A DNA stretch of 62,600 nucleotides from a virus: positions 1 to 62,600 of the IMG/VR virus record IMGVR_UViG_3300006793_005371; one strand, 5' to 3'. The notes below the pieces were generated by a model, which saw only the letters and a list, made by a program, of their open reading frames with translations, was not told the origin of the DNA and ran no database searches. This document shows, in pieces, positions 225 to 29,604 of this stretch (its first letter is position 1; every line of letters starts with the position of its first letter). Both the position numbers and the translations under genes were made by a program.

Positions 225-544
225 TGATTAGCATATTGCAAGAAACAACCGATTGGGGCAAATTCAAAGTCAATAACGGCATTTATCATATAAATGGTGC
301 TGGTAGTTTAGTTGCATACCAAGTTAACCAAGATGCAGAAGTGCAAGTTCTTAAATCGCCTAGCAAACAATTTTCCAAGTCGCGAAGAAAATTTGTGAAG
401 ATTGGTGAGCGACCAGAAGAAGTTGCAAGTCATGTTATTGAAGTCAAAGGTTCTAAAGGTAATGTTTACTATGTGGACACAGAAAAGAACACTTGTACTT
501 GCCCAGGATTCACATTCCGAGGTAATTGTAAGCATATTAAATAA
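224..544 (+). CDS. SWIM zinc-finger protein
   Basis: A 106-residue protein whose last 20 residues carry the SWIM pattern CTCPGF..RGNCKHI (CxCx(n)CxH), a zinc-binding module linked in other proteins to DNA or protein binding. The N-terminal part is a small mixed region with a basic stretch (KSRRKF) and no family I recognise. The start overlaps the previous stop (TAATG). The late promoter for the next gene overlaps its 3' end. Function inferred only from the zinc motif. Confidence 0.7.
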   Translation: MISILQETTDWGKFKVNNGIYHINGAGSLVAYQVNQDAEVQVLKSPSKQFSKSRRKFVKIGERPEEVASHVIEVKGSKGNVYYVDTEKNTCTCPGFTFRGNCKHIK

Positions 545-547
545 ATA
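541..547 (+). promoter_or_regulatory. Late promoter element, 5 nt before ATG
   Basis: ATAAATA, then five bases (CTAGT), then the ATG of the deformylase gene at 553. No Shine-Dalgarno sequence fits between. It matches the T4 late promoter core TATAAATA at seven of eight bases. Confidence 0.7.
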
Positions 548-552
548 CTAGT

Positions 553-1059
553 ATGTTAGTAGAACCAAATCACCAAGCATTACATATGAAGGCAGACGTT
601 GATCCGTTTACTGCTGACGATGTGAATTGGCCTGAACGACAAAAAGAAATGTTCCAACTTATGAGAGATAAGTTCGGTATAGGATTGGCCGCTCCACAGT
701 TAGGTGCTAGTTACAATATGTTTGTAATGAATCACACAACATTAGGTGACATAGGTGTTTACAATCCAGAAATTATTTCGCAGTCGGAAGAAACTGTATG
801 CCAGGAAGAAGGTTGTCTAACATTCCCTTTATTATTTTTTATGGTAACAAGACCTGCAAAATGCACAGTTAAGTTCTCTGATGCTTTCCAAGAAGAGCAT
901 ACACTAGAACTAGAAGGTACTGATGCTCAATGCTTTCAACACGAATTTGATCACTTACAGGGTAAGTTATTTTTAGAATATGCTAGTGACATGAAATTGC
1001 AAAGAGCAATGAAGAAACGTGAAAAGAGAGTAAAACAGTTATTAAAGATGCAGGCATAA
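553..1059 (+). CDS. def: Peptide deformylase
   Basis: Removes the formyl group from the initiator Met of nascent proteins, using a metal held by one Cys and two His. All three family motifs are present in order: GIGLAAPQ (42-49), EEGCLTF (metal Cys88) and HEFDHLQG (metal His130 and His134, catalytic Glu131). At 168 residues it is the usual size for the catalytic domain with a short basic C-terminal helix. The start is fixed by the late promoter ending 5 nt upstream. Deformylases are known in marine T4-like phages. Here it may act with the phage ClpS/ClpX/ClpP in controlling N-termini, which is inference. Confidence 0.93.
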   Translation: MLVEPNHQALHMKADVDPFTADDVNWPERQKEMFQLMRDKFGIGLAAPQLGASYNMFVMNHTTLGDIGVYNPEIISQSEETVCQEEGCLTFPLLFFMVTRPAKCTVKFSDAFQEEHTLELEGTDAQCFQHEFDHLQGKLFLEYASDMKLQRAMKKREKRVKQLLKMQA

Positions 1060-2321: not shown

Positions 2322-4571
2322 TTATAATCCTGCTAATTTTTTAAGTTCTACCATTGTTTCTTCTAAAGCATTGTCTATTGCTTGATCAATTGATTCTTCT
2401 TGCTGTGCTGGATTCATACCTGGTAACTGTGGTTGATGTGGAGTTCTTTGTTGAACTGCCCCGTCAGATCCTTTACCTCTTGGTTGAATTTTTAATCCTA
2501 CTTGATCCAATATATTTTGTGTTACTCTTTCTTGTTTTCCCTGAGGACCTTTAATAAGAATATATGCTGGATTGTTTGGTGTTGGAGGAGCAACGGTTAC
2601 TAGTTTAGTTCCTTGCATTAGTCCTGGAACTTGCCCTAACATCATAACTTCTTTACCGCTTTTATCTAGTAATACATAGTCAGCATCTGGACCATCTAGT
2701 TCATCATTTCGGAAGTCGCCTTGCTGAAACTCATTAACTTCTTCATCTTCTGCGTACATGTCTGAAAGATCTAATGCTTCTGCTGGCTCACCGTGGTCTT
2801 TCCAATCTGCATCATCAACTAATGCTTCAATATATATTTGAATGCATTCATCTCTGTCATCATCTGCATGTAAACCTTTTTCTCTACAAATTTCGTTAAT
2901 TTCGTCGTCCAGTTCTTCCATTGAACAACCACATGCTATACAAAGTCCTTCTTCACCACCCTTTTGATAAGCATCAAATAGTTCATCATATGCTTGAGAT
3001 TCACGGCTTTGTTCTGCTTGTGGATCAAAACTTTCTTCCATTTCTGGTTCTTCGTCATCTTCTAGTTGTGCTTTAAGTTCGTCGTAGTCCCAAGTATCAC
3101 CGTATTCATCTTCAAATTCTTCTTTGCTCATTTGATCGACATCTATTAATACGTCTTTTAGTTTGCCTTCTTTAATATCTAAACCAGCCATTTGTCTCAT
3201 GTAGTTGAGATCGTCTTCTTCTTCAATTGCTTCTTCTGGGTTACCATATGTCTCACATGGATTCTTACCACAGCCACAATTCTTAGGCTCGTCTTTTTTG
3301 GCTTCCATTTCTAATTCATCTTCTGGTGCATCAAACTCTGGATCATCCATGCTTACCATTTCTGGCTCGTCCATGTCCATATCTGGTTCTGGTTGGTCAT
3401 CTAAATCATCAAAGTTATCTAGTTCTGCATCTTTTCTGTGCAATTCCATATTGTTGATTGCATTGTTTACTAGTGATATAGTCCATTTTTTGTCCTCATC
3501 ACCTAACGCCATTATGCCGCCTTCTGGCATGTTATCAATGATGTTACTTAATCTGTCACTAGCCGCAAATCCTTCATCGTCGTTTGCCAGTCTAGCATTA
3601 ATTTCACCTAGCACATATCCTGGAGATTGTGCTAATAGTTTTAAAAACATTTCTTTTTTAACTGCTGGATCGTTTATATCAGCACCATCTGGAAACTGAT
3701 TAGCCATGCTTCTATTTCTTTGTCTGCTGTTGATAGGCTTACCTGTGTCAACACTGATCATATCTTTAGGAGCAATTTTAGTAAAGCCTACTGAATTAGG
3801 ATCACTTGCCGCCGCCTTTGCAGGTCTTTCTGCAGAAGCCTTTTGATCTTTCTTACTAACACCAGGTTCATAGTCCATTGCACCCTTGCCTGGAGCAAAG
3901 TTAACTGGTGCTTCGTCGAGCAACCCTGCTAATTTTTTTAATGTTTCTAATGATTCTTTCATAATTTTACCTGTTATTTTGTCGTAAACCAAATCAAATA
4001 TTTCTTGGTTAAACTCTCCCATATACCTAGCATACGTTTGTTTAGCACTATCTAAGTCTGGAGCACTAAGTAATGCAGTTCTAAATGCACTTGCACTCGC
4101 TACATCTCCGCTTATGCCTGTAACAGTTGGTGCTTGTATCACATAACCGTGTTTTAGCATAGATTGTGCGTTATTAGTATTTATCACATCTGTGCCATTT
4201 TGTAGGTAACTATCAGAACCATCTTTTAAAGGTTTAAATGCAAACCTTGGACTTTCCTCCATATCCTTTTGTCCTACTGCAAAAAACAACGAATGTTGTT
4301 CTGCTGGAGTAAAGGTACTTGCATACGAATCCTTATTGTATAAGTTATTTCCTGCTGGTATGATAATTCTATCTTGAGGTATATCATGTTGCTGAGTCAT
4401 GATGCTGATTTTTTCTTGTGCATCAAATGGTGATTTACCTGCTTCTACTTTATTTGCTGTAGCAATATATACTTCTGCATCAGGATTATTAGATTGTAGT
4501 GTGCGAAACACTTCCGCATGATGCGGTAACATAGGTTGGAATCTACCTGGATATATAATAACCTTTTTCAT
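2322..4571 (-). CDS. Large acidic protein with degenerate nucleotidyltransferase N-domain (virion-type)
   Basis: 749 residues from the chosen start. Residues 1 to about 205 look like a cytidylyltransferase/NMNAT-type fold: start KKVIIYPGRFQP, then LPHH where active enzymes have HxGH, and a late ISGD..SASAFR similar to the ISxTxxR motif. Two of the four HxGH positions differ, so catalysis is doubtful. The rest is strongly acidic, low in hydrophobics, with Cys clusters (CGCGKNPC; CIACGC) and three 'LKKLAGL'-like motifs including the last residues. The frame is open to 4610, but a late promoter ends 5 nt before the internal ATG at 4571, which therefore is the likely start. Position among minus-strand structural-type genes suggests a virion or head-internal protein; this is inference. 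Confidence 0.65.
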   Translation of the reverse strand: MKKVIIYPGRFQPMLPHHAEVFRTLQSNNPDAEVYIATANKVEAGKSPFDAQEKISIMTQQHDIPQDRIIIPAGNNLYNKDSYASTFTPAEQHSLFFAVGQKDMEESPRFAFKPLKDGSDSYLQNGTDVINTNNAQSMLKHGYVIQAPTVTGISGDVASASAFRTALLSAPDLDSAKQTYARYMGEFNQEIFDLVYDKITGKIMKESLETLKKLAGLLDEAPVNFAPGKGAMDYEPGVSKKDQKASAERPAKAAASDPNSVGFTKIAPKDMISVDTGKPINSRQRNRSMANQFPDGADINDPAVKKEMFLKLLAQSPGYVLGEINARLANDDEGFAASDRLSNIIDNMPEGGIMALGDEDKKWTISLVNNAINNMELHRKDAELDNFDDLDDQPEPDMDMDEPEMVSMDDPEFDAPEDELEMEAKKDEPKNCGCGKNPCETYGNPEEAIEEEDDLNYMRQMAGLDIKEGKLKDVLIDVDQMSKEEFEDEYGDTWDYDELKAQLEDDEEPEMEESFDPQAEQSRESQAYDELFDAYQKGGEEGLCIACGCSMEELDDEINEICREKGLHADDDRDECIQIYIEALVDDADWKDHGEPAEALDLSDMYAEDEEVNEFQQGDFRNDELDGPDADYVLLDKSGKEVMMLGQVPGLMQGTKLVTVAPPTPNNPAYILIKGPQGKQERVTQNILDQVGLKIQPRGKGSDGAVQQRTPHQPQLPGMNPAQQEESIDQAIDNALEETMVELKKLAGL

Positions 4572-4576
4572 ATTAG

Positions 4577-4583
4577 TATTTAT
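4577..4583 (-). promoter_or_regulatory. Late promoter element, 5 nt before ATG
   Basis: On the minus strand GATAAATA followed by CTAAT and the ATG at 4571. It lies inside the longer open frame and so decides the start. Confidence 0.7.
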
Positions 4584-4596: not shown

Positions 4597-5124
4597 TTAC
4601 CCTTTCTCATACTTTACACCTACTATATGGTATCTGGTTTCCCAACCAAAGTTAATTGCACTATGCAATCCTGTGGTGTCTACTTGGTATGTACTACCTA
4701 CTTCTAAATGATACATTTTAGGTTGTGTAAGTTCATCAAAGAACATCATGTATGCATCGGGATTTGTTACCAGTGGTATGTGTAATCTTGTATTTCTTTT
4801 ACCATTATCGCTGTCTGAGTGTATGCTGTAGTTGGTATGAGAGTCTAGTTTTAATAATCTCCAACGTACATATTCAGGAAACTGATTTATTAATTCTTCA
4901 AAGTATGTGCCTTCTAGGCGTTTGTTTAGTGTGCAATATGCTTTTTCAGGAAATTGTAAATGTTTAATTTTACCTGTGCTTTCGTTCCATGCGTCATTGC
5001 CCAGCACACTAGTTAGTGTTATTTGATTTGGATTTGCAAAACCTACATCTTCAAGTAAGTCATCAAGTGATTGTTTTAATTTTTGAGGATCTGTTTGATA
5101 ATCAAGTTTAATAACATGTGACAT
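4597..5124 (-). CDS. 2OG-Fe(II) oxygenase (Asp/Asn hydroxylase-like)
   Basis: 175 residues with the iron-binding facial triad of 2-oxoglutarate oxygenases: IHSDSD (His102, Asp104), LHSAINFGWETRYH (His154) and the 2OG-contacting Arg164. The wording around the motif resembles aspartyl/asparaginyl beta-hydroxylase-like proteins. The reaction would be oxidative hydroxylation of an unknown target. It is one of four such proteins in the window and the only one placed inside the minus-strand virion block, so a virion protein or a nucleotide/sugar modification are both possible. Its start has the perfect TATAAATA late promoter 5 nt upstream. Confidence 0.75.
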   Translation of the reverse strand: MSHVIKLDYQTDPQKLKQSLDDLLEDVGFANPNQITLTSVLGNDAWNESTGKIKHLQFPEKAYCTLNKRLEGTYFEELINQFPEYVRWRLLKLDSHTNYSIHSDSDNGKRNTRLHIPLVTNPDAYMMFFDELTQPKMYHLEVGSTYQVDTTGLHSAINFGWETRYHIVGVKYEKG

Positions 5125-5129
5125 GCTAC

Positions 5130-5137
5130 TATTTATA
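5130..5137 (-). promoter_or_regulatory. Late promoter TATAAATA, 5 nt before ATG
   Basis: Perfect TATAAATA on the minus strand, then GTAGC and the ATG at 5124. It overlaps the zero-frame stop of the upstream gene but lies just beyond the -1 frame stop at 5143. Confidence 0.75.
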
Positions 5138-7331
5138 GGATATTATTCCCACCAATACTTTTTGCCGGCCGGGGTAGGTGTCCAACTTTCGCCAAAACGT
5201 CTTGCTTGAGCACTTGGTGTTGAACGTGCCATCTGTTTTTTCTTTGTATGTTTAGTATTTTATCATGAGTAGGTGTACCTACTTTAAACTTCATTGGATA
5301 GTTTACCTGGTCTGTTGATTCCCACTCGTCGCCTTTTCTAATAAACTGGCGATCTACACCACCCATTTTAACAGTAACAATATCGTCACCGCCAACATCT
5401 TTTAATTTTCTTTCGTTTGTTGGTTCTGGTAATTTTGCTTGTTTTCTTAAAAAGTTCTCAACGTCTGTTCTATTAGGATCGTATTTTACTCTGTTAGTTT
5501 GGAAGTCTGGGTTAAACTTGATATTTAAGTTTATTAATGTTCTTTGGTCACCAGCATCTGCATATACATCTAAAGCATTATAATAATGTTTTGCTAAGTC
5601 TGAATCTTCGCCACCTTGTTGAACGTGAGCCTGTAAAGCCTTACCTAGATCGCCGTCTTTGGCTGTAGGAGCCAATGAGTTAATACCCAACAATCCCATA
5701 ATTAATGCACTAATACCAAGACCTTTTTTGATTGTATCTTTGATGCCTTCTTCAAGTTGTACTTCGTATTGATTAAGTGCAACATCTTTGTATAGTTCTG
5801 CTAGTTCTGGATTCTCACTTTGCAGTTCTGCATACAGTTCAAATGCATCTTGACCTTTAGGATCTTTAATAGACTTTTTAAGTAATTCCGCAACCTTCAT
5901 TTCATTTGCACTATTGTCTCTTGCTGGACTTAATTCTGTTATTCTTGTATTAGTCTTAGTAGGTCCTGCTGTAATACTTTCACCGGCATGCATAGCCGCC
6001 ATATGTTTTTTATATTTCTTAGTACCTTTTTTGTGTGGCGACTTACCTTCGGAGAAGTTTTTCAAAAAGTCACTAACAACTTCTACTGCTTGATGCTTGC
6101 CTATTTCTGGATACATTTGTCTAAGTATTTTAGGTAACTCAAATGCGTTATACCTTCCTGATTGCACATAGTCTTTATGTAACATTGGGATTAATTTGCT
6201 TAATTCTTCATTGCTTGGTGCTGATTTCTTATTCATTTGTTTCTCATCATGTTTGGCAATTTCTGCCCAATTTGGTAATCCGTCATCATTTTGAGTCATT
6301 TCACCTTCGTCACAACCGTAGTTGCCAAAGCCATAACACTCTGAACTTTCTTCTTCCTCACCGTCATCATTGATAAATGTTTCTTCACCGTCCATATAAC
6401 CCGAACCAGCACATTCTGGACATACACCATCTTTAATGTAGTCGTCCATAAAATTACCTTGTAATACATCTTGTAAATCGTTGTATGCTTCTATTCTTTC
6501 TTCAGCATCATAGTAAGCATCAGGTGTACCAATCATTCCTTCTTCTGCTTCTGGTATAATTCCTTTAGGGTCATTACGTTTGGGAGAAGTAGTTTGTCCA
6601 GTGCCACCGCACTTAGGACAATTAGGAACAGCACCAGATGATGTTACACAATCACATACTTGAGGATTGCCGCCTTCTGGTTTTGTGTGAGCATCTGCTC
6701 CAAACGGTTTCTTTATTTTGTTTTTACTGTGGTTACTATTAGTGTATGGACTTTCTGCCTCTATTGCGTTTCTTCTTTCACTGCCAGGAGCACCATGTTT
6801 AAGAGTACCACCGTCGCCTGCTAGTTGTCCTGTTTCTTGATGATATAGTTGTTTCATTTTTTCTAGAGTCTCAGGATTATCCATATCACCTAAAGTATAA
6901 GGAAACATAGCACCTTTGCCTTTGTCTTTTAACCAATTAATAAATTCTGCATCAATGGCAGGATTTAATAAACTTGCTTCGTTGTTTACACTTTCTTGAC
7001 CGTACTCTCTATCTAATTCTTCGTCATCAATCTTGTTTTTTAATGTACGAATTAAATCTTCAAATGGTTCTTCTAATCCGTATACCGCAGATTCTAAATT
7101 ATTTTTTGCTTGAAAAACAGCATTTTCTAAATACTCTACTTCTGCTTTAAGTTCTTCGCTGTTTAAATCATCCACAATTGAACCTACTGCTGTTATAATA
7201 TCAATAGCAGTATCGTCGTATTTGATGTTTTTGGTAGTTGCTCTGACTTGATCAAAGGCTAATTCAACCTTGTCTAATAAGGCCTCATCTTCTGGACTCT
7301 CTGATAAAACTACTATGTCTTTAAACTTCAT
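5133..7331 (-). CDS. Large virion-type protein with DnaJ-like zinc motifs; possible -1 frameshift
   Basis: 732 residues from the ATG at 7331, chosen because a late promoter ends 5 nt upstream (the frame is open to 7346). The middle contains CxxCxGxG-type motifs (CPKCGGTG, CPECAGSG, plus CDC and CYGFGNYGC), like the zinc region of DnaJ. A hydrophobic segment (ISALIMGLLGINSLAP) lies in the C-terminal third. The gene sits among structural-type genes. Near the 3' end an A AAA AAC heptamer at 5241-5235 is in the zero frame. Continuing in zero frame adds 33 residues to the stop at 5133; slipping to -1 adds 30 residues ending PAGKKYWWE at 5143. The -1 tail looks more protein-like, so either programmed frameshifting or an indel in the A run is likely. 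Confidence 0.65.
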   Translation of the reverse strand: MKFKDIVVLSESPEDEALLDKVELAFDQVRATTKNIKYDDTAIDIITAVGSIVDDLNSEELKAEVEYLENAVFQAKNNLESAVYGLEEPFEDLIRTLKNKIDDEELDREYGQESVNNEASLLNPAIDAEFINWLKDKGKGAMFPYTLGDMDNPETLEKMKQLYHQETGQLAGDGGTLKHGAPGSERRNAIEAESPYTNSNHSKNKIKKPFGADAHTKPEGGNPQVCDCVTSSGAVPNCPKCGGTGQTTSPKRNDPKGIIPEAEEGMIGTPDAYYDAEERIEAYNDLQDVLQGNFMDDYIKDGVCPECAGSGYMDGEETFINDDGEEEESSECYGFGNYGCDEGEMTQNDDGLPNWAEIAKHDEKQMNKKSAPSNEELSKLIPMLHKDYVQSGRYNAFELPKILRQMYPEIGKHQAVEVVSDFLKNFSEGKSPHKKGTKKYKKHMAAMHAGESITAGPTKTNTRITELSPARDNSANEMKVAELLKKSIKDPKGQDAFELYAELQSENPELAELYKDVALNQYEVQLEEGIKDTIKKGLGISALIMGLLGINSLAPTAKDGDLGKALQAHVQQGGEDSDLAKHYYNALDVYADAGDQRTLINLNIKFNPDFQTNRVKYDPNRTDVENFLRKQAKLPEPTNERKLKDVGGDDIVTVKMGGVDRQFIRKGDEWESTDQVNYPMKFKVGTPTHDKILNIQRKNRWHVQHQVLKQDVLAKVGHLPRPAKSIGGNNIL
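5143..5241 (-). other. Candidate -1 frameshift site and alternative C-terminal tail
   Basis: Minus-strand heptamer AAAAAAC (5241-5235) is read in zero frame as (AG)A AAA AAC, the canonical X XXY YYZ layout. After a -1 slip translation continues CAG ATG GCA CGT... for 30 codons to TAA at 5145-5143. The alternative frame also has its own ATG one codon after the slip, so a separate 29-residue ORF cannot be excluded. No clear stimulatory pseudoknot was identified by eye. Confidence 0.5.
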
Positions 7332-7336
7332 AGTAG

Positions 7337-7343
7337 TATTTAT
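7337..7343 (-). promoter_or_regulatory. Late promoter element, 5 nt before ATG
   Basis: Minus-strand GATAAATA, then CTACT and the ATG at 7331 of the large virion-type gene. Confidence 0.7.
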
Positions 7344-15213: not shown

Positions 15214-15288
15214 GCCCCGTTCGTCTAGTGGTTAGGACACATGGTTTTCATCCATGCAACAGGAGTTCGATTCTCCTACGGGGTACCA
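15214..15288 (+). tRNA. tRNA-Glu (UUC)
   Basis: Cloverleaf with acceptor GCCCCGT/ACGGGGT, anticodon stem CATGG/CCATG around loop TTTTCAT (anticodon TTC), T-loop TTCGATT and encoded CCA at 15286-15288. Confidence 0.93.
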
Positions 15289-15295
15289 TGTTTAG

Positions 15296-15370
15296 GCGGA
15301 TGTAGTATAACGGCTATTATGAGACCTTGCCAAGGTTTAGATCCGAGTTCGATTCTCGGCATCCGCTCCA
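15296..15370 (+). tRNA. tRNA-Gly (GCC)
   Basis: Acceptor GCGGATG/CATCCGC, anticodon loop TTGCCAA (GCC), T-loop TTCGATT, encoded CCA at 15368-15370. Confidence 0.93.
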
Positions 15371-15378
15371 GTAGTAAT

Positions 15379-15453
15379 GGTCTGGTAGTTAAACGGTTAT
15401 AATTCCGCCCTGTCACGGCGGCGTTCGGGGTTCGATTCCCCGTCAGACCGCCA
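15379..15453 (+). tRNA. tRNA-Asp (GUC)
   Basis: Acceptor GGTCTGG paired with TCAGACC, anticodon stem CCGCC/GGCGG around CTGTCAC (GTC), T-loop TTCGATT, encoded CCA at 15451-15453. Confidence 0.93.
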
Positions 15454-15457
15454 TTAC

Positions 15458-15547
15458 GGAGAGTTGGCTGAGCGGCTTAAAGCACTTCCCTGCTAAGGAA
15501 GAGTACGGGTAACTGTACCGAGAGTTCGAATCTCTCACTCTCCGCCA
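15458..15547 (+). tRNA. tRNA-Ser (GCU)
   Basis: Class II tRNA with long variable arm; acceptor GGAGAGT/ACTCTCC, anticodon stem CTTCC/GGAAG around CTGCTAA (GCT), T-loop TTCGAAT, encoded CCA at 15545-15547. Confidence 0.93.
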
Positions 15548-15655: not shown

Positions 15656-16837
15656 TTAGTTTTTAGTTACTAGCCTCTCTGTGAGGGGTTTAGTGACTAA
15701 ACTTGCTAGAAACTCTACGTCATGTGATAATTTATAGTTATGTCTAACAATTTCTAAATTAGGTTCCTTTGAAACCATAACATCTATAACTGCTTCTATA
15801 CGCTCTGGACCAAATTCTAAATTGTCATACAATTCTGTGTACTCCATTATAAAACCTACATCAGTTAATGCATTGTTTAGTCCTGCAGGACCTATTGTGA
15901 GTATAGGCATTCCTGCCATCATTCCTTTAAATGTTTTTTCAGTGTTAAATTTTATGTGAGGATAAGTTTCACACGCAATTTTCCAAGTGTAGTTTCCTGC
16001 GTATCTTTTGTTTAGAGGAATGCAGTCTTTAAATAATTCTATTGTGCTATTAGGCAATACCTTAGGCAACTCATGTCTGTATGATCTAACAAACTTTTCT
16101 ACAAGTTCGGATTGTACAAGTGAATGCCCATATCTGCCCAACCCAACGTTAGGACTTTTAAAGTAATCACCCAACTTACCATCTTCATCAAAGTTAACAG
16201 TTAAACTCCAATCTACGTTGTGGTCTAGTAATTCTAGTTGAGCAAGTCTAGCCAATGTTGCAAGTCTACCAGGCCTAGGTTTATGATTTGGAAATAAACA
16301 TCTCTTAATTTTTTTGTTGTCTATGATACTTTCTGGTACTATGTTTCCTGTTCGCACAGCCTCCATATATGTAATCAATGGAAATATGTGCATACACATT
16401 GTTTCGTTACCAAACTCATCAAATGCGCCACTGGCATTTAATATTCTGTTATCATTTATTAATACTTTAGGTAAAAAATGTTCTACATGGTACCCGCCGT
16501 CTATATAATCATACACAATGATGTTATAAACACTTATCAGTGTTTCTCTAATTTTAGCAGATAACTCCATGAAGTCACTTGCACAAATTTCAAACCAAAA
16601 GTTGTCTAGTGGTTCTGTAACTTGCATTAACGCATCTACTGATATACCTTTTGCACCAAACCTTTCACCAAATGCTAGTCCTCTTTCTTTGCATTGTCTT
16701 TTTATAACATTGCCAAATTCTGGATTGTTATAGAAAATACCTATCAAACCTGGGTGATCCATTGCATCACTGAAAGCATATTCCAAAGTGTTGTATGTTT
16801 CTGATCTTGCTGTTGATATCTTTTCTAAGTGTATCAT
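15656..16837 (-). CDS. Putative glycosyltransferase-like phage protein
   Basis: 393 residues from the ATG at 16837, chosen because CTAAATA ends 5 nt upstream (an ATG at 16858 is further up in frame). The C-terminal third has KFNTEKTFKGMMAGMPILT, resembling the FTEKTxKPxxxGxP motif in some glycosyltransferase-like proteins of large phages. No DxD metal site or transmembrane segment is obvious. It is transcribed opposite to the surrounding genes. Function is a guess from this motif; it could act on surface glycans with the FkbM/GT pair. Confidence 0.45.
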   Translation of the reverse strand: MIHLEKISTARSETYNTLEYAFSDAMDHPGLIGIFYNNPEFGNVIKRQCKERGLAFGERFGAKGISVDALMQVTEPLDNFWFEICASDFMELSAKIRETLISVYNIIVYDYIDGGYHVEHFLPKVLINDNRILNASGAFDEFGNETMCMHIFPLITYMEAVRTGNIVPESIIDNKKIKRCLFPNHKPRPGRLATLARLAQLELLDHNVDWSLTVNFDEDGKLGDYFKSPNVGLGRYGHSLVQSELVEKFVRSYRHELPKVLPNSTIELFKDCIPLNKRYAGNYTWKIACETYPHIKFNTEKTFKGMMAGMPILTIGPAGLNNALTDVGFIMEYTELYDNLEFGPERIEAVIDVMVSKEPNLEIVRHNYKLSHDVEFLASLVTKPLTERLVTKN

Positions 16838-16842
16838 GCCTA

Positions 16843-16849
16843 TATTTAG
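16843..16849 (-). promoter_or_regulatory. Late promoter-like element (CTAAATA), 5 nt before ATG
   Basis: One mismatch to ATAAATA but with exactly the same 5-nt spacing (TAGGC) to the ATG at 16837. Confidence 0.5.
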
Positions 16850-16893: not shown

Positions 16894-16900
16894 ATAAATA
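16894..16900 (+). promoter_or_regulatory. Late promoter element, 5 nt before ATG
   Basis: GATAAATA, then TGTAT, then the in-frame ATG at 16906. It lies inside a longer open frame beginning at 16795 and decides the start. Confidence 0.65.
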
Positions 16901-16905
16901 TGTAT

Positions 16906-18264
16906 ATGCTATTCGGATTATTAACATTATTTACAGCCTTGGCTATTGCCGGTGTAGCCGCATGGTTCAGTATAGTAGGTCTTATGACGTTCTTCCAAGG
17001 AGCGGCTATGAGTATTGCTGTTATGGCCGGTACACTTGAAGTTGGCAAATTAGTAACAGTAAGTTGGCTATATAGGTATTGGAAAGAAACTTCATTACTG
17101 GTTAAGATGTATTTGTCTACGGCAGTACTATTTTTAATGCTTATTACAAGCATAGGTATATTTGGCTATCTCAGTAAAGCACACCAGGAAGTATCTGGCA
17201 GTAGTGCAGATGCATTTGCTGTAGTAGAAAGAATTGATGGACAAATACTAAGAGAAGAAAATAAGATAGACATACTAGAAGACCGTATTACTAGTTTACA
17301 AACTGGTGGCGGATTAGATGTTAGTTCAAGTATACAGCAACAAGTATCTATAAGAGATGGCGCATGGGAAAGAGTACAAGGCGATATTGATTACGCACAA
17401 GGACAAATAGATAGGCTCAGAGACCAACTAGCAGTATTAGATAAAGCAGTAAACGATTTAAGAAACAAAGGTGTTGAAGTTATAGAAACTGATGCAGGTG
17501 GAACGTTCAGACGTGCCGAAACAGAAACCATCGATTATGTTGCACAGGCAAATGAACTATTTGAACAGCAATCACAACAACGTGCAGATATCAAAGAAGA
17601 TATTGACAAGCAACAAGCAAACATAGACAAGTATAGAGAACAAGCACAGGCAGACATAAACAATGCTAATGCAGAGATTAACAGGCTTAGAGAAAACAGT
17701 AGCACAGATCAAGATGAGATACTTGTAAAAATAGATGATTACAATAATCAAATAGATACAATATATGCAAACATTGTAGTAATCAAAGATGAGAAGTTTG
17801 AAGCAGAAAGTGTTGTTAGAAACATAGAGAAGGAAGTTGGACCAATCAAATATGTTGCCGAACTTATATATGGTGAAAGCGGGGAAGAAGTATTAGGACA
17901 AGCAATACGTTTGTTTATAATATTACTTGTTGTAGTATTTGATCCATTAGCAGTTATGTTACTTATTGCGGCCAACCAGACGTTGTTACGTTACGGAATC
18001 AACTTAGAAAAAACAGGACCAGATCCTCATTTTGTAGATGAGATACTCGACGATGATGATTTTGAAACTCAATCTAGAAAAATATATGGCGACAATATGC
18101 CAGATGTTCCCGAAGTCAAGGAAGTTATAGTAGAAAAAGAAGTTATAATAGAAAAGGAAGTTGAAAAAGAAATTGATATGAATGCTATTAAAACTCCTAG
18201 AGCAGTAAAGGCTCTTGAAAAAAAACTTAAGAAGAAATTAGACGATGACGGAACAAGAAGTTAA
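16906..18264 (+). CDS. Membrane protein with long periplasm/cytoplasm coiled coil
   Basis: 452 residues from the promoter-defined start. Three or four membrane segments lie in the first 85 residues (LFGLLTLFTALAIAGVAAWFS onward) and another pair near 345 (FIILLVVVFDPLAVMLLIA). Between them are about 230 residues of heptad-rich coiled coil (DQLAVLDKAVNDLRNK and similar). The tail has EVIVEKEVIIEKEVEKE, the same repeat type as the next protein. Similar proteins occur in T4-like cyanophages; role unknown, possibly envelope remodelling or superinfection control. The next gene overlaps by 20 nt. Confidence 0.7.
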   Translation: MLFGLLTLFTALAIAGVAAWFSIVGLMTFFQGAAMSIAVMAGTLEVGKLVTVSWLYRYWKETSLLVKMYLSTAVLFLMLITSIGIFGYLSKAHQEVSGSSADAFAVVERIDGQILREENKIDILEDRITSLQTGGGLDVSSSIQQQVSIRDGAWERVQGDIDYAQGQIDRLRDQLAVLDKAVNDLRNKGVEVIETDAGGTFRRAETETIDYVAQANELFEQQSQQRADIKEDIDKQQANIDKYREQAQADINNANAEINRLRENSSTDQDEILVKIDDYNNQIDTIYANIVVIKDEKFEAESVVRNIEKEVGPIKYVAELIYGESGEEVLGQAIRLFIILLVVVFDPLAVMLLIAANQTLLRYGINLEKTGPDPHFVDEILDDDDFETQSRKIYGDNMPDVPEVKEVIVEKEVIIEKEVEKEIDMNAIKTPRAVKALEKKLKKKLDDDGTRS

Positions 18265-19018
18265 AGATAAGTTCGACGAACTTTATGCAAAATATCAACA
18301 CACAATGGAGATGCTTGTTGATGCGTTGGATAACATAGAATCATTAAAAAAAGAACTTGACAAAAAACCAAAAGAAGTTATAGTAGATAGAGAAGTAGAA
18401 AAGATAGTAGAAGTAGAAGTAGAAGTCCCAGTTGAAGTTATTAAAGAAGTAATAGTTACTAAGGAGATTGAAGTTGAACAGATCGTCGAGAAGATTGTCG
18501 AAGTTAAAGTCCCAGTCGAGGTCGAAAAGGAGACAGTGGTCACTGTCGAAAAGGAAGTCCCAGGACCAGAGCGAATCGTTAATGTTGAGGTCCCCGGACC
18601 AGAAAGGAGAGTGGAAGTCCCTGGACCAGAGCGAGTAGTAGAAGTTGTAAACCCAGAGGATGCAAAACTTAAACAACAGAATTTAGTTTTGTCAGCAGAA
18701 ATACAAAAACTAAAAAAACGTAAGCCTGAAGTTAAGATAGTCGAAAAGGAAGTTATAGTAGAAGTACCAGTAACAGAGTTCGTAGATCAGCCGCCCCAGG
18801 TAATTGAATCAGCATCTACAAAAGACTTACATGAAGCCGCAAGACTTATGTCACAGAGTGAGTTGAACAAAGAGGACCTCACAGAAAAACAAATCTATAA
18901 TCTTTTAATCAAGGAATCCGAAGAAGAAGTTAAACGTAAAATTGGCTTCTGGGCAATGCCTCTGCCTACAGATGAAGGGCAACCGACAAACAAAAAGTAT
19001 ACTGGAAAGAAAAGGTAA
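18245..19018 (+). CDS. Repeat protein with VEVPGPER / EVxVEKEV repeats
   Basis: 257 residues. An N-terminal helix is followed by about 100 residues of alternating Val/Glu/Lys repeats (VEKIVEVEVEVPVEVIKEV type) containing three VPGPER units, then a coiled coil and a helical C-terminus with IGFWAMPLPTDEGQ. The alternating pattern suggests extended beta structure or a stalk. The previous gene ends in the same type of repeat, and the two overlap, so they may assemble together. No enzyme motif. Function unknown. Confidence 0.65.
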   Translation: MTEQEVKDKFDELYAKYQHTMEMLVDALDNIESLKKELDKKPKEVIVDREVEKIVEVEVEVPVEVIKEVIVTKEIEVEQIVEKIVEVKVPVEVEKETVVTVEKEVPGPERIVNVEVPGPERRVEVPGPERVVEVVNPEDAKLKQQNLVLSAEIQKLKKRKPEVKIVEKEVIVEVPVTEFVDQPPQVIESASTKDLHEAARLMSQSELNKEDLTEKQIYNLLIKESEEEVKRKIGFWAMPLPTDEGQPTNKKYTGKKR

Positions 19019-19042: not shown

Positions 19043-20320
19043 ATGCCAGATAATAAAAATCTGCAATGTAGTTTTTGCGGAAAAAATAGAGACAACGTAG
19101 ACAAACTTATTGCAGGTCCAAATGTTTACATTTGCAATGAATGTATCATATTGAGTTACGATATTGTAGTTTCAGCAGGTGAAACAAATGAAAATTCATT
19201 AAAGTTAGAGGACCTTCCTAATCCACAAGATATTAAACAGTTTCTAGATTCACATATAATTGCACATAACGATACCAAAGAACTGTTATCAGTTAGTGCT
19301 TATAATCATTATAAAAGAATACTAGGACAGACATCAATTGAAATAGATAAAACAAATGTACTATTAGTTGGTCCAACAGGAACAGGTAAAACATTGTTTG
19401 CTAAAACACTTGCTAAAAAATTACAAGTACCGTTCGCTATTGCTGATGCAACTACACTAACTGAAGCAGGATACGTTGGGGAAGACGTAGAGAGCGTCTT
19501 AGAGCGTCTGCTGAGCATTGCTGACTGGGACCTCGATAAAGCACAAAAGGGTATAGTTTACATAGACGAGATAGATAAAAAGGCCCGTAAGAGCGAATCT
19601 AACTCCTCTACACGCGATGTTAGTGGTGAGGGAGTACAACAAGCACTCTTAAGACTGATAGAAGGTACTATAGTTAAGATTAAAACAAGTAAGTCTAATA
19701 CTAAGTTTCAAGACAGCACAATAGAATTTGATACAAAAGACGTATTGTTTATATTAGGTGGTGCGTTTGTAGGACTAGACAAAATTGTTTCTAAAAACAT
19801 AACTAAAAATTCTCAAATAGGATTTGGCTCCAAACTTATTACAACCGAAGAAAAGAATACTATACTCAATCAAACAACACCTCAAGACATTGTACAATAT
19901 GGTCTTATACCTGAACTAGTTGGTAGGGTACCTGTTATAGCAGTACTTGAGGAATTAAACCAACAACATTTACGACAAATATTAGATACAGTTGATAACA
20001 ATATTGTTGATCAATACAAAGAACTTATAAGTCTTGATGATATAAATCTTAACATAGGTAAAGAGTATTTAGACGAAGTGGCAAAGATTGCCAGCAGGTC
20101 GGAGTTAGGTGCTAGAGGACTTAAGACGTTGATAGAGAATACATTATTGAGTATAATGTACAGGGCACCACTACTCAGAAAACAGGGTGTGAATGAGATA
20201 GAGTTTCATAAATATCCAGTAGAAGAACAAAATTTTCCATTATTAAAATACGATAATGGACAAACAGTGATAGACACTAACTATAGAATATACCGAGGAA
20301 TATATGGCAAACAAAAATAA
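19043..20320 (+). CDS. clpX: ClpX ATP-dependent unfoldase
   Basis: 425 residues with the complete ClpX layout: N-terminal C4 zinc domain (Cys9, Cys12, Cys31, Cys34), Walker A GPTGTGKT (110-117), pore loop GYVG (143-146), Walker B IVYIDEID (171-178), the IGF loop that docks into ClpP (259-261), a [11 protein letters not shown] arginine-finger region and the sensor-2 helix ARGLKTLIE. All parts needed to unfold substrates and feed ClpP are present. With the phage ClpP (52346) and ClpS (28103) it could form a phage-controlled protease. It overlaps the next gene by 17 nt. Confidence 0.95.
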
Positions 20321-20729
20321 CTGGGGCAAGAACACCGGGAACAACTTTAAAAAGTCGTTCAATAATAAGAAAGGTCCTAGAAAAGAAGAGAACTTTTTAG
20401 ATAAGTTCAAGGGTGCTAGTGTTGAAGTTAGAAACGGTGATGTTAATGGTGCTATCAGAAAACTAAAGAAAATTTTAGAAAATGCAGATAGGCAAAAAGA
20501 ATTAGCAAAACGAGAGTTTTACGAAAAGCCTAGTGCTAAACGTAAAAGACGAAAAGATGCCGCAATCAAAAGAACACAACGAGAAGAGAACAAAAAAATC
20601 TACTCAGGTGAGGCACCACTACAAGAAGTATCAGGGTTTGCGTTTATGAAATCCAAACGTAAGAGAAGGAAGTATTCAGATAAGAAGTCTGCTGTTGATA
20701 GACATCTTAGATCATCCGGTTTACGATAA
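20304..20729 (+). CDS. rpsU: Ribosomal protein bS21-like with extensions
   Basis: 141 residues. The middle (VEVRNGDVNGAIRKLKKI, then REFYEKPSAKRKRRKDAA) matches bS21 (xVxVxxxExxDxALRRFKR, RREFYEKPxxxRKRKxxxA). About 40 residues precede and 45 follow the bS21 core; both are basic. bS21 sits near the anti-Shine-Dalgarno end of 16S rRNA and affects initiation; phage-borne bS21 is known in viruses of marine bacteria. It fits the idea that this phage alters host ribosomes. Start overlaps clpX. Confidence 0.8.
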   Translation: MANKNNWGKNTGNNFKKSFNNKKGPRKEENFLDKFKGASVEVRNGDVNGAIRKLKKILENADRQKELAKREFYEKPSAKRKRRKDAAIKRTQREENKKIYSGEAPLQEVSGFAFMKSKRKRRKYSDKKSAVDRHLRSSGLR

Positions 20730-21509
20730 ATGTCAAAGATCGTTGTAGTCAGCGGCGGCTTTGATCCATTACATAGTGGACACATTAATTTATTAGAGTC
20801 AGCATCAGCGTATGGTGAAAAACTTGTTGTTTTAGTAAACAGTGATGACTGGCTAACAAGAAAGAAAGGCAGACCTTTTATGCCTTTTGAAGAACGTGCT
20901 TTAATCCTACAACGTATGGACATGGTTGATAATGTGTACGGGGTAGACGATGCAGACGGAAGTGTAACCAAAGGCTTGATAGATGTCAGGAATGCATTCG
21001 GACAACATCACGAATATGTCTTTTGTAACGGAGGTGATAGAAAGAAAGACAACATTCCAGAAATGTCAGTTGAAGGTTACAGTTTCGAATTTGCAGTTGG
21101 TGGAGATAACAAAGCCAACAGCAGTAGTTGGATCTTGAAAGAGTGGAAGTATCCAACCGAGCGCCGTGTGTGGGGAGAGTTTTCAGACTTGTTCCAAGAC
21201 ACGGCAGTAAAAGTAAAAGAACTAATTATAGAACCAGGTAAAGGGATAAGTTATCAAAGACACTTTAAACGTAGTGAATCTTGGTTTATCAGCAAAGGCG
21301 AGTGTGAAATTAAATATTCCCCGGGAGAACCTGAGCATTTTACAATACATCAATTAAAAACTGATGATTCTTTTACAGTTAAACGTGGAGATTGGCATCA
21401 GGTAATAAATAAAACTGATGGACCATGTCATATTATAGAAATACAATATGGCGAAGAAACAACTGAAGACGATATTGAACGTCTTGAGTATTACGACGGA
21501 GAGAAATGA
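20730..21509 (+). CDS. Cytidylyltransferase-cupin fusion
   Basis: 259 residues. N-terminal half: nucleotidyltransferase of the RfaE/glycerol-3-phosphate cytidylyltransferase type with GGFDPLHSGH (HxGH at 15-18) and an RxxYP/FCNGGDR region. C-terminal half (about 145-259): cupin similar to mannose-6-phosphate isomerase type II (RVWGEFSDLF; GISYQRHFKRSE; KRGDWHQVINKT). Together they suggest activation and modification of a sugar phosphate, for phage glycans or host surface change. ATG overlaps the previous stop region (GATAAATG), and the next gene overlaps by 4 nt. Confidence 0.82.
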   Translation: MSKIVVVSGGFDPLHSGHINLLESASAYGEKLVVLVNSDDWLTRKKGRPFMPFEERALILQRMDMVDNVYGVDDADGSVTKGLIDVRNAFGQHHEYVFCNGGDRKKDNIPEMSVEGYSFEFAVGGDNKANSSSWILKEWKYPTERRVWGEFSDLFQDTAVKVKELIIEPGKGISYQRHFKRSESWFISKGECEIKYSPGEPEHFTIHQLKTDDSFTVKRGDWHQVINKTDGPCHIIEIQYGEETTEDDIERLEYYDGEK

Positions 21510-21955
21510 GAGAATTAGGAATGACGTTATTAGGATGTCTAGCAATAAGTATGTTTTTTGTTGCTAAAGTATATCCAAATTTAGAATACACTGGAGCATC
21601 CAGCAATAGTAGTTGTACTGGACAATGCTATGTAGATTATGTAGCACTTAACGGTACACCATCTGAGATAGAACAACGCAAACAAGCATTGGCTAACTTA
21701 GACGAGTTTAGTGACATCAGAAGTTTATGGGCAGGTTGTGCCGCATGTCACGGACAGGCAGGTGAAGGTATGGCAGTATTCCCAAAACTTGCTGGACAAA
21801 GTTCAGCATATATTGTGGACAGACTTAACACTTACAAGAACAGAGGACAAGTAGGTGCAATGAGTTCCACTATGTGGGCACAGGCCGGCATGTTGTCTGA
21901 TAAAGATATAGAAACAATAGGTAAGTTTATAGAAGCAGGCTTACCGGGAAAATAA
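21506..21955 (+). CDS. Membrane-anchored or exported c-type cytochrome
   Basis: 149 residues. An N-terminal hydrophobic segment (about 6-21) is followed by a Cys-containing linker and a class I cytochrome c domain with the haem motif CAACH (78-82) and a likely distal ligand Met119 in VGAMSSTMW, then SDKDIETIGKFIEAG. This is the cytochrome c4/c5/c553 pattern. Haem attachment would need the host Ccm system in the periplasm. It heads the group cytochrome, ferritin-like, IscS, IscU. A phage cytochrome c is rare; role could be to accept electrons during infection, which is inference. Confidence 0.85.
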   Translation: MRELGMTLLGCLAISMFFVAKVYPNLEYTGASSNSSCTGQCYVDYVALNGTPSEIEQRKQALANLDEFSDIRSLWAGCAACHGQAGEGMAVFPKLAGQSSAYIVDRLNTYKNRGQVGAMSSTMWAQAGMLSDKDIETIGKFIEAGLPGK

Positions 21956-21961
21956 GGATAC

Positions 21962-22402
21962 ATGGAATTGAGAGACCTGAATACAACCGCAGTATGCGAT
22001 ATACTAAATAAAATAGTAGAGTTAGAAATGGCTGGAGTAGTTAGATATGCTCATAGTTCATTAATGATTACAGGGCCTAACAGAATTCCTATTGTGGCAT
22101 TCCTGCAAGAACAAGCAAACGAAAGTTTAGCACACGCCTTACAAGCAGGTGAATACATCACAGGCTTTGGTGGACACCCAAGTCAAAAAATTGCACACAT
22201 TGAAGAAAATCATGATCATAGTGTGTTACAGATATTGCAAGAAAGTTTAGATCACGAAGTGTCAGCAGTTGAAATGTATAAAAAGTTATTGACAGAAGTT
22301 GCTGATGCAAGTATAATGTTAGAAGAATATGCAAGAGGCCAAATTGGAATGGAAGAGCAACATGCTCTAGAAATTCGTAAAATGCTAAAAGACTTCGGAT
22401 AA
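21962..22402 (+). CDS. Ferritin-like (bacterioferritin/mini-ferritin) protein
   Basis: 146 residues, four-helix bundle pattern with di-iron ligands spread in two pairs: Glu20/22, ANESLAHA (Glu54, His58), DHEVSAVE (about 98-104) and MEEQHALE (131-137). GFGGHP between helices 2 and 3 is typical of bacterial ferritin-like/Bfr-type proteins. It may store or detoxify iron. It sits 6 nt after the cytochrome gene and 1 nt before iscS, suggesting iron supply for cluster assembly. Whether it forms a 12- or 24-mer cannot be seen. Confidence 0.8.
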
Positions 22403-22403
22403 C

Positions 22404-23675
22404 ATGGATCATAAACAACATAGAGATATAACAGCAACAATAGACACCAAGGCCCAGCCTACTGGGGATAGAATTTACATGGACTATGCTTCTACTACAC
22501 CTTGCGATAAACGTGTAGTTGAATCTATGGTTAAGTACATGACTGAAGATGGAGAGTTTGGTAACCCAGCAAGTAGAAGTCACAGTTTTGGTTGGACAGC
22601 AGATGAGGCCGTTGAAACTGCTAGAAAGAATGTAGCAGACTTAATTGGTGCAGATCCTAAAGAAATAATTTTTACTAGTGGAGCCACTGAAGCAGATAAT
22701 CTTGCTGTTAAAGGTATAGCACAATTTTATGAAACTAATGGCAAACACATTATAACCAGTAAAATAGAACATAAAGCAGTATTAGATCCTTGCAGAGAAT
22801 TAGAACGCCAAGGCTTTGAAGTTACATACTTAGATCCTAATGAAGATGGTATAGTTACAGCACAAATGGTTATAGATGCTGTTAGAGACGATACTATACT
22901 TGTTAGCATTATGTATATCAATAATGAGATGGGCACAATCAATGATATTGAAGGGATTGGTGCGTTTTGTTTTGAAAATAAAATTATGTTTCATGTTGAT
23001 GCCGCACAGGCAACTGGTAAAATAGACTTCAACTTACAAGAACTGCCAGTACACGCAATGAGTTTATCTGCTCATAAAACATACGGTCCAAAAGGTATTG
23101 GTGCATTGTATGTTAGAAAAAAGCCAAGAGTAAGATTAAGAGGACAAATACACGGTGGTGGACACGAAAGAGGTATGCGGTCCGGAACATTACCTACACA
23201 TCAAATTGTAGGAATGGGTGAAGCATTTAAGTATGCTAGGCTTGAAATGGAAGAAAATAAACAACATGTTAAAATGTTGCATGATAGATTACTAGAAAAA
23301 CTTATAGGTATAGAAGAAACATATATTAATGGCTCATTAGATCACAAAGTACCAAACATACTCAACATAAGTTTTAACTTTGTAGAAGGCGAGTCTTTGA
23401 TTATGGCACTAGACAACGTTGCTGTAAGCAGTGGTAGTGCATGTACAAGTGCTAGTTTAGAGCCCAGTTATGTACTTAGAGCTATTGGCAGAGATGACGA
23501 ATTAGCACACAGTAGTATTAGGTTTAGTTTTGGAAGAACAACTACTGTAGAAGAAGTTGATAGTGTTGCCGAAACAATGCTCAATGTTATTGAAAAACTT
23601 AGAATACTATCACCTTTATGGGATATGTATTTAGACGGTGTTGATTTTAGTAAAGTTAAATGGAACGCACACTAA
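22404..23675 (+). CDS. iscS: Cysteine desulfurase IscS
   Basis: 423 residues. PLP enzyme that removes sulfur from cysteine. Motifs: [13 protein letters not shown] (26-38), SGATEADN (92-99), EHKA with His123, [13 protein letters not shown] lysine in [11 protein letters not shown] (Lys225), and the mobile-loop catalytic Cys347 in [14 protein letters not shown], the group I (IscS/NifS) pattern. The N-terminus is about 25 residues longer than usual. It is 15 nt upstream of iscU, which has its own late promoter, so the donor and scaffold are paired as in bacterial isc operons but without IscR, HscA/HscB or Fdx next to them. Confidence 0.95.
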
Positions 23676-23678
23676 TAG

Positions 23679-23685
23679 ATAAATA
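23679..23685 (+). promoter_or_regulatory. Late promoter element, 5 nt before ATG
   Basis: GATAAATA, then TTATT, then the ATG of iscU at 23691; no ribosome site in between. Confidence 0.75.
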
Positions 23686-23690
23686 TTATT

Positions 23691-24119
23691 ATGGCATATT
23701 CAAATAAAGTTGTAGACAGATTTAAAAATGTACTTCATAATCCTGAAGCACATGGTGTTGGTAGGTTTGATCCAAAAGATCCAAATGTTGCTACTGGCAT
23801 GACTGGCGCACCAGCATGTGGTGACGTAATGAAGTTGGACTTGAAAATTAATCCTGACACAGATGTTATTGAAGATGTAAAATTCAAAACATATGGTTGT
23901 GGTAGTGCTATTGCAAGTTCGACTATGTTTGTTGAAATGCTTAAAGGCATGACAATCGAACAAGCACAACAAGTCAAGGACAAAGACATAGCAGATGCCT
24001 TAGAACTTCCTGCATTGAAACTACATTGTTCAATTCTAGCAGAAGAGTCAATCAAAGAAGCCATTGAAAATTGGGGCGAAAAGAAAACACATCGCCTCCA
24101 CAACAATCCCCCAAAATAA
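23691..24119 (+). CDS. iscU: Fe-S cluster scaffold IscU
   Basis: 142 residues with the scaffold ligands Cys43 and Asp45 (APACGD), Cys70 (YGCGSAIASS), and His112/Cys113 (LKLHCSILAEE). The HscA-recognition motif LPPVK appears as LPALK (106-110). The protein is nearly the size of bacterial IscU with a longer basic tail. It would accept sulfur from the adjacent phage IscS. Its late, apparently leaderless promoter points to need for cluster assembly late in infection. Confidence 0.95.
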   Translation: MAYSNKVVDRFKNVLHNPEAHGVGRFDPKDPNVATGMTGAPACGDVMKLDLKINPDTDVIEDVKFKTYGCGSAIASSTMFVEMLKGMTIEQAQQVKDKDIADALELPALKLHCSILAEESIKEAIENWGEKKTHRLHNNPPK

Positions 24120-28089: not shown

Positions 28090-28097
28090 TATAAATA
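28090..28097 (+). promoter_or_regulatory. Late promoter TATAAATA, 5 nt before ATG
   Basis: Perfect TATAAATA, then GATGT, then the clpS ATG at 28103. Confidence 0.8.
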
Positions 28098-28102
28098 GAT
28101 GT

Positions 28103-28399
28103 ATGGCACAAACTAAAACAGAACAGCGAACAGCAACGGAGATAACATTTCCTAAAAGATATAATGTTATTTTCCTCAATGACGACTTTACTCCTATGCC
28201 GTTTGTTATACATTTGCTTATTGAAGTATTCAATAAGGACATTGAAGAAGCACAGGATATAACTGTACAAATTCATGAGTCAGGTAAAAGTATAGTCGCA
28301 ACTTATTCATTAGAGATAGCCGAACAAAAAGTACATGAAGCAACGGTTGTATCTCGTCACGCAGGACATCCTTTACAGATTATTACAGAAGAACTATAG
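28103..28399 (+). CDS. clpS: ClpS N-degron adaptor
   Basis: 98 residues of the ClpS fold: YNVIFLNDDFTPMPFVIHLL carries the Asn-Asp-Asp and Thr/Met residues of the N-degron pocket, VQIHESGKS carries the pocket His, and YSLEIAEQK the ClpA-facing helix. In bacteria ClpS delivers N-end-rule substrates to ClpA, not ClpX; no ClpA is visible here, so it must use host ClpA or an unusual partner. The stop overlaps the sufS GTG by 1 nt, coupling the two. Confidence 0.93.
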   Translation: MAQTKTEQRTATEITFPKRYNVIFLNDDFTPMPFVIHLLIEVFNKDIEEAQDITVQIHESGKSIVATYSLEIAEQKVHEATVVSRHAGHPLQIITEEL

Positions 28400-29604
28400 T
28401 GCTTGACCTAAAGAGATCATTCCCTACTCTTGCCAACAACCCAGAATTAGCATATTTCGATTCCGCCGCCAGTACTCAAACACATGAGTCAGTAATAAAG
28501 GCAATGAATGAATACTACGAACATTTTCGCTCTAACACAAACAGAGGCGAATATGCTATCAGCGAGAGAACTGCTGTTGCAGTAGAAACCGCAAAAGAAC
28601 AAGTAGCAAACCTTATTAATGTTCCTGCAAGTCAACTAATGTTTACCGCTGGTACAACGCAAGGCTTAAACATGATAGCACGTTGGATGAGAGATAAGAA
28701 AACTGTTATTGTAACAGAAGCAGAACATAATGCTAATATTGTTCCTTGGCTAACACAAGGTAAAAGTACGTCAGACGATAGTATTGCTGTTATGCCTATA
28801 AATGATTTTAATGGTGAAATTGACTTATACGAACTAGAAAAACTACTAGATAAACATGCTGGAGGTTGGCAAGATTTATTAGTAAGTTTTTGTGCTACAA
28901 GTAATGTAACAGGAGTTACACAACCATGGGAAGCCATAACTGACTTAGCACACAAATACGGTGCTAGTGTATGTATAGATTTTTGTCAAACTGTAGCACA
29001 CAAAAAAATAGACTTAACAAAAACAAAAGTTGAATTTGCAGTTTTTAGTTCACACAAAATGTATGGACCAACTGGCATTGGAGCATTATATACGTCATTT
29101 GATTTTGAAGACTTAGTTCCTCTTTACTATGGCGGTGGCGCAGTTGATTCAGTGTCGTTTGATAGTGTATCACTAAAACAAGGTGTAGCAAAACATTGTC
29201 CAGGAACACCGGATATTGCAAACATTATTGGCTTCGGTGTTGCTTGTGAAATGATAAGATATGTAGGTTATCCTACTATATATTTACAAGAGAAAGATGT
29301 ACTACAGAGTTTACTTAGTTATGGTGTTGATGTATTACCTAATTGTAGAGTATATCCTGAACTAGGATTTGACACAAATGTAATAAGTTTAATACCTATC
29401 AAAGGACATAGTGCTGATGTAGGACAACTAATGTCAAACACAGACGTTGCTATACGAACTGGTAAAGTATGTGCTCACCCTATAGTAGATAGAATAAGCG
29501 GAGGTAAAGGTATAGTAAGAATATCGTATGCTCCATATAACGATGATGCAGATTGTAAAAAACTTTGCCAAGAATTAGCCAAAGCACTAGTAAAGGTAAA
29601 ATAA
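28399..29604 (+). CDS. sufS: Cysteine desulfurase SufS
   Basis: 401 residues, GTG start overlapping the clpS stop. Group II desulfurase layout: YFDSAASTQTH near the N-terminus, NRGEY, EAEHNANIVPW (His110), CIDFCQTVAH (Asp194), PLP lysine Lys220 in FSSHKMYGPTG, and catalytic Cys358 in RTGKVCAHP, matching the SufS/CsdA RxGxxC motif rather than the IscS loop. Needs SufE for activation, and a SufE is encoded at 51898. Thus the phage carries two distinct desulfurases. Transcribed with clpS from a late promoter. Confidence 0.95.
   Translation: MLDLKRSFPTLANNPELAYFDSAASTQTHESVIKAMNEYYEHFRSNTNRGEYAISERTAVAVETAKEQVANLINVPASQLMFTAGTTQGLNMIARWMRDKKTVIVTEAEHNANIVPWLTQGKSTSDDSIAVMPINDFNGEIDLYELEKLLDKHAGGWQDLLVSFCATSNVTGVTQPWEAITDLAHKYGASVCIDFCQTVAHKKIDLTKTKVEFAVFSSHKMYGPTGIGALYTSFDFEDLVPLYYGGGAVDSVSFDSVSLKQGVAKHCPGTPDIANIIGFGVACEMIRYVGYPTIYLQEKDVLQSLLSYGVDVLPNCRVYPELGFDTNVISLIPIKGHSADVGQLMSNTDVAIRTGKVCAHPIVDRISGGKGIVRISYAPYNDDADCKKLCQELAKALVKVK

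Follow-up and report, generated by a model that had tools for sequence, protein, structure and literature searches.

Phage-encoded bS21, its entry into the ribosome and its inhibitory effect in vitro have already been published. The bS21 of the marine Pelagibacter phage HTVC008M enters E. coli ribosomes and lowers in vitro GFP synthesis to ~5% (Mizuno 2019, PMC6375957), a figure for which the authors name host incompatibility as an alternative. Late transcription of phage bS21 genes has likewise been reported, in a study that counted Clp proteases among the genes near them (Chen 2022, PMC9723584), and passages of the work on huge phages, from which both IF3 and S21 are known, describe phage bS21 proteins with extended N-termini, a feature proposed to serve in competitive binding or in preferential initiation on phage mRNAs (Al-Shayeb 2020, PMC7162821). 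In bacteria, the bS21 (rpsU) of F. johnsoniae tunes the choice of mRNAs through the 3′ tail of the 16S rRNA (PMC9976891). As for the pelagimyophages, S21 was judged to lie outside any gene cluster, and the same study failed to find middle or late promoters (PMC7029224).

The DNA analysed here (62,600 nucleotides in full, referred to as the window) represents part of the genome of an uncultured virus that probably infects marine bacteria. It encodes a bS21 of 141 residues, outside the usual length of ~55-90 residues (a typical range, not a strict requirement), within an operon whose coordinates are collected in Table 1. The homology of the core is clear: PF01165 (Ribosomal_S21) matches residues 39-90 with an E-value of 3.5e-13 and 49.5 bits, against a curated cut-off of 27, a second match, at 2.1e-12, is to phrog_21469 (“ribosomal protein S21”), and the two-helix bS21 fold with its (F/Y)YEKP hinge is seen in the predicted structure, the EFYEKPS stretch being conserved among relatives. 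These matches, in an open reading frame that starts at an ATG behind a GAGGA, bear out the earlier note, which had read the gene as a bS21 core embedded in a 141-residue protein. Its estimate of about twice the normal size also holds, as the PDB bS21 chains matched are all at most 88 residues among those listed, the commonest and most others at most 71, and it rightly called both long extensions basic, since their net charges are +7 (38-residue N-tail, with the aromatics W7, F15, F19, F31 and F35) and +10 (46-residue C-tail). Elsewhere, the window carries four consecutive tRNA genes (Glu, Gly, Asp and Ser; 15214-15547) and an iron-sulfur/redox set (21506-24119, 28399-29604 and 51898-52293) comprising a cytochrome c, a ferritin-like protein, two IscS/class-V aminotransferases, IscU and SufE.

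Table 1. Coordinates of the bS21 operon, the parts of the long bS21 and the late-promoter-like boxes in the window.
Feature	Position	Strand	Remarks
ATAAATA-N5-ATG sites in the window	541-555, 4569-4583, 5122-5136, 7329-7343, 16894-16908, 23679-23693, 28091-28105, 51886-51900		
Late-promoter-like box ATAAATATGTATATG, ATG at 16906	16894-16908	+	bS21 operon predicted to start here without a leader
First operon gene, 452 aa	16906-18264	+	No Pfam family; many short phage bS21 genes have it upstream too
Second operon gene, 257-aa coiled-coil-like protein	18245-19018	+	
ClpX	19043-20320	+	Contains zinc finger PF06689, AAA_2 and an IGF loop; overlaps with the start of bS21
Shine-Dalgarno GAGGA of the bS21 gene	20295-20299	+	Nearly all long relatives have AGAGG/GAGG in this position
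Long bS21 gene, 141 aa	20304-20729	+	ORF from ATG; PF01165 and phrog_21469 matches
N-terminal tail, residues 1-38	20304-20417	+	Asn/Lys-rich, predicted disordered
bS21 core, residues 39-95, EFYEKPSA hinge	20418-20588	+	Pfam match, AF2 helices
C-terminal tail, residues 96-141	20589-20726	+	Loop, then basic helix 118-137; motif x(M/L)KxK(R/K)xxR
Cytidylyltransferase-like and cupin protein	20730-21509	+	Directly downstream of bS21

In the AlphaFold (AF2) model, helices span residues 47-73 and 76-101, the second running beyond the Pfam core, a third helix occupies residues 118-137 in a block with a pLDDT of ~90, and residues 1-35 mostly fall below 50. The long bS21 would most likely sit where host bS21 normally binds, on the 30S platform beside the 3′ end of the 16S rRNA, with the two-helix core docking like other bS21 proteins. 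Further contacts with rRNA and/or mRNA around the anti-Shine-Dalgarno (SD) and exit region could then come from the N-tail, which is basic and flexible, and from the additional basic helix at the C-terminus; these contacts may help the phage protein to outcompete host bS21 and to shift initiation to phage messages. We give a probability of roughly 0.6 to this explanation, in which a phage bS21 made from a late operon replaces host bS21 and turns 30S initiation towards phage messages; within it, replacement is likely and a bias in initiation plausible. It draws on the family match, the modelled helices, the constraint on both tails, the single clade and the fixed ClpX cassette described below, as well as on the published behaviour of other phage bS21 proteins (PMC6375957, PMC9723584, PMC7162821). 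Several points count against it. The core is the sole part of the protein with a known binding site, fold searches with the model returned mainly bS21 relatives at weak scores (best E 0.8 in PDB and 0.015 among viral entries), and the E. coli assay of the HTVC008M protein gave inhibition, not re-targeting. The C-tail stretch alone has no Pfam match, and a relationship of the tails to any other Pfam family was discarded, as none matched even at E 10.

The long tailed design is common to ~25 distinct phage proteins found by scans of viral contigs, in which 61-66 residues follow the FYEKP motif, against 20-38 in other phage bS21 proteins. Aligned with one another, these relatives open their N-tails with an NNW/NF-like motif and share the C-tail motif given in Table 1. 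In a tree built from the core only, the long forms make up one branch (support 97/99), which also takes in a protein with a shorter C-tail (L068) and another cut by the contig end (L011), and no others. Codon comparisons of the measurable pairs, rough because several of them have high or saturated dS, gave dN/dS values of ~0.02-0.2 for the core, mostly 0.02-0.34 for the C-tail and mostly 0.01-0.4 for the N-tail (one pair at 0.65); both tails are under purifying selection, which is strongest on the core. This recurrence, together with tail values well below 1, indicates that the long design is neither chance nor a frame error.

The same pattern of selection bears on a role away from the ribosome, as an RNA chaperone or as part of another ribonucleoprotein. 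Such a role would suit the very basic tails, and bS21 is reported to be a component of the OLE ribonucleoprotein (PMC12054373), but the constraint is strongest precisely on the bS21 core, and a related phage bS21 does enter ribosomes (PMC6375957), so we hold this role to be very unlikely. What sets the long form apart is its C-terminal helix, because a basic, Asn-rich N-tail is present in some of the short phage bS21 proteins as well. A bacterial origin was also considered and rejected: a non-exhaustive scan of genome contigs, which applied the long-form alignment through two short peptide patterns, gave a single match in a Rickettsiales MAG contig of 29,883 bases, itself probably viral because IMG/VR lists a 29,883-base viral counterpart (L084) with a near-identical match position. 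For 96 sampled genomes of the class of this MAG, the comparison covered open-frame lengths only, a measure that is misleading in GC-rich genomes. The long bS21 is a well-defined, new variant of phage bS21, and a limited literature search found no earlier report of a conserved C-terminal helix on such proteins.

Set beside the described systems, the locus shares with HTVC008M the bS21 core, the marine phage background, an AAA-ATPase gene directly upstream and the ATAAATA-N5-ATG boxes, whereas the HTVC008M protein has 67 residues and no long C-tail, and its upstream ATPase is of the CobS/AAA_5 type instead of ClpX. With the rpS21 of huge phages it has in common a basic N-terminal extension, to which are added a C-terminal helix that is conserved and the cassette with ClpX, the extensions mentioned in those passages of PMC7162821 being N-terminal. 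The genes of Chen 2022 (PMC9723584) resemble it in their link to late expression and in C-termini conserved within clades, but they lie among structural genes, on the strand opposite to these, and keep an aromatic residue at the position of Tyr54. The likeness to F. johnsoniae would lie in a bS21 tuning mRNA choice via the 16S 3′ tail (PMC9976891). Counted without gaps from the shared KPS motif, however, its Tyr54 falls on Lys89 of the long bS21, a Lys in the relatives and a Ser in three of them (L009, L010 and L066), so the Bacteroidia mechanism of blocking the anti-SD is not expected as such; stacking on the anti-SD of the Bacteroidia type was discarded, with Lys89 in place of the aromatic residue. 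We likewise rejected an autoregulation through a strong SD as in rpsU, whose SD lies below -13 kcal/mol, against -5.9 kcal/mol for the long bS21 (duplexfold, an energy method that differs from that of the paper): the gene is SD-led, but its SD is unexceptional, ranking 23 of 77 genes.

The surroundings of the long form are fixed. ClpX lies directly upstream in 28/28 long loci having upstream DNA, and the cytidylyltransferase/cupin gene directly downstream in 26/26 having downstream DNA, both counts containing a few near-duplicate contigs. The ClpX-bS21 pair is nonetheless wider than the tailed form, because ClpX is also found upstream at 10 of the 74 loci of the “short” class (defined by score, and including L068 and the contig-truncated long form L067), as well as directly upstream of bS21 in PA5oct and SCTP-2. 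The latter two differ in their bS21 proteins of 68 and 86 residues, without the long C-tail, and in showing no enrichment of leaderless promoters. In Mosig, an annotated AAA-family protein lies one small ORF away from bS21. Within a limited literature search, no earlier report of the ClpX-bS21 cassette was found. Besides ClpX, the window encodes a phage ClpS adaptor (28103-28399), and SCTP-2 carries ClpX, bS21 and ClpS in a row.

This cassette has to be weighed against a simpler idea, in which the phage merely tops up a loosely bound, exchangeable and limiting ribosomal protein and the tails do no more than raise affinity. Viruses are indeed enriched in ribosomal proteins that are loosely bound and exchangeable, bS21 among them (PMC6375957), and short phage bS21 proteins are numerous, yet simple supply leaves the conserved 46-residue C-tail and the fixed pairing with ClpX unexplained, and we regard it as improbable. 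A substitute that acts on initiation finds a parallel in a sister phage group (of the type L012-L014 and L016-L020), where a complete IF3 gene abuts bS21, IF3 being present in 7/7 contigs tested; in one of them (L013), IF3 domains were found and the IF3 gene (5429-5962) overlaps the bS21 reading frame. This adjacency ties phage bS21 to initiation. No IF3 was found in the window or in the long-form contigs, all of them partial. The phage-encoded, complete IF3 gene was noted in L013, G035, G037 and G141-G144.

The operon with bS21 appears to start at a leaderless-type late promoter (16894), from which the 452-aa and 257-aa proteins, ClpX, bS21 and the cytidylyltransferase would be read in this order. 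The promoter signal is the spacing of the box to the ATG: ATAAATA-N5-ATG occurs 8 times in the window, where other spacings average 0.60 occurrences (Poisson 2.4e-7), and a one-mismatch search gives 31 hits against 14.8 in shuffles, with no shuffle as high. The exact TATAAATA alone was rejected as the signal, its 3 copies in the window being unremarkable. The genes at the eight sites include peptide deformylase, a cytidyltransferase-like protein, an Asp/Asn-hydroxylase-like protein, IscU, ClpS and SufE. A leftward-facing box with one mismatch (16835-16849) lies ~60 bp from the operon box, forming a divergent pair on opposite strands, and similar close divergent pairs are seen in the relatives G001, G002, G005, G010, G025 and G036.

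Across 25 long-bS21 contigs there are 83 spacing-5 sites, against 5 for the reversed pattern, and in the fully read subset an ORF of 60 codons or more begins at 46 of the 53 spacing-5 sites, compared with 46 of 118 at other spacings. Such boxes also occur in cultured pelagimyophages and a methylophage (the HTVC008M, Mosig and Melnitz records), and in HTVC008M all nine (9/9) coincide with annotated gene starts, among them those of baseplate, tape-measure and DNA-end-protector genes. T4 (50 kb sampled) has no peak at spacing 5 and shows spacings of ~21-28 instead; no spacing-5 excess was found in the stretches read of P-SSM2, S-PM2, P-SSM4 and KVP40, or in whole-record counts of syn9 and phiM12. 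In T4, late promoters have their 8-bp TATA box roughly one turn of the helix ahead of the point where transcription begins (PMC2988020). With a spacing of 5, this geometry would put the 5′ end of the transcript on the AUG or immediately beside it; by this analogy, spacing-5 late boxes are predicted to yield leaderless mRNAs. The window genes behind them are nearly devoid of SD (duplex energy above 0 in 7 of 8, the eighth at -4.0), whereas its upstream regions overall carry an SD signal (mean -3.6 vs -1.6 shuffled). For a late sigma factor like gp55 of T4, the late sigma factor of HTVC008M gave no match when used as a query in 15 contigs, all partial, and a limited literature search found no earlier report of these leaderless-type late promoters.

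Late expression also bears on the possibility that the long bS21 acts mainly by impairing how host messages are translated, without favouring any class of phage mRNA. The loss of E. coli ribosome activity caused in vitro by the HTVC008M protein would fit such a shut-off; on the other hand, the gene seems to belong to an operon with a late-type promoter, at a time when phage proteins are still needed, and its core is under strong purifying selection. We consider this possibility unlikely.

Returning to replacement with a shift in initiation, the earlier note had further proposed that the altered bS21 could favour leaderless phage mRNAs and be tied in this way to the late promoters. The promoters are real as a signal in the sequence, in the window as in the relatives and in HTVC008M, but their link to the extensions found no support: the bS21 gene itself is SD-led, the anti-SD-blocking tyrosine is replaced by Lys89, the same promoters are found with short bS21 (the 67-residue protein of HTVC008M, Mosig and other contigs), so that they cannot mark the long form only, and PA5oct and SCTP-2 carry bS21 with no spacing-5 enrichment. 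Among ten reference phages screened by both tests, a clear spacing-5 excess appeared only in HTVC008M, a bS21 carrier, and the seven phages without bS21 had none; in this small set, where host and ancestry act as confounders, the type of promoter follows bS21 and not the tails.

A specific boost by the long bS21 to initiation on leaderless late mRNAs would be one particular form of the favoured explanation, and we judge it possible but doubtful. The strong promoter signal in the long-bS21 clade and the singular position of HTVC008M among the reference phages speak for it, as does the reduced initiation on SD-less mRNAs when F. johnsoniae loses bS21 or its C-terminus (PMC9976891). This has to be set against the promoters that accompany a 67-residue bS21, the two bS21 carriers without enrichment and the confounded comparison. 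Moreover, E. coli ribosomes missing several proteins, bS21 included, translate leaderless mRNA (PMC4929434), so bS21 is not generally needed for this kind of translation. A further elaboration, in which ClpX and the phage ClpS, itself encoded behind a predicted leaderless late promoter (28091-28105), would help to remove host bS21, the long bS21 would substitute for it, and the resulting ribosomes would favour leaderless late phage mRNAs over host mRNAs with SD, seems to us quite unlikely.

Even apart from bS21, late promoters of the leaderless type in pelagimyophages would close the gap left by the earlier search for middle and late promoters in this group (PMC7029224). The clade of long bS21 proteins, for its part, offers a sharp test of why phages carry ribosomal proteins at all, as it combines a clade-specific C-terminal helix, locked to ClpX, with phage genes that split into an SD-led class and a class predicted to be leaderless and late. 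If the long bS21 shifts the balance between these two classes, phages would be building specialised ribosomes.
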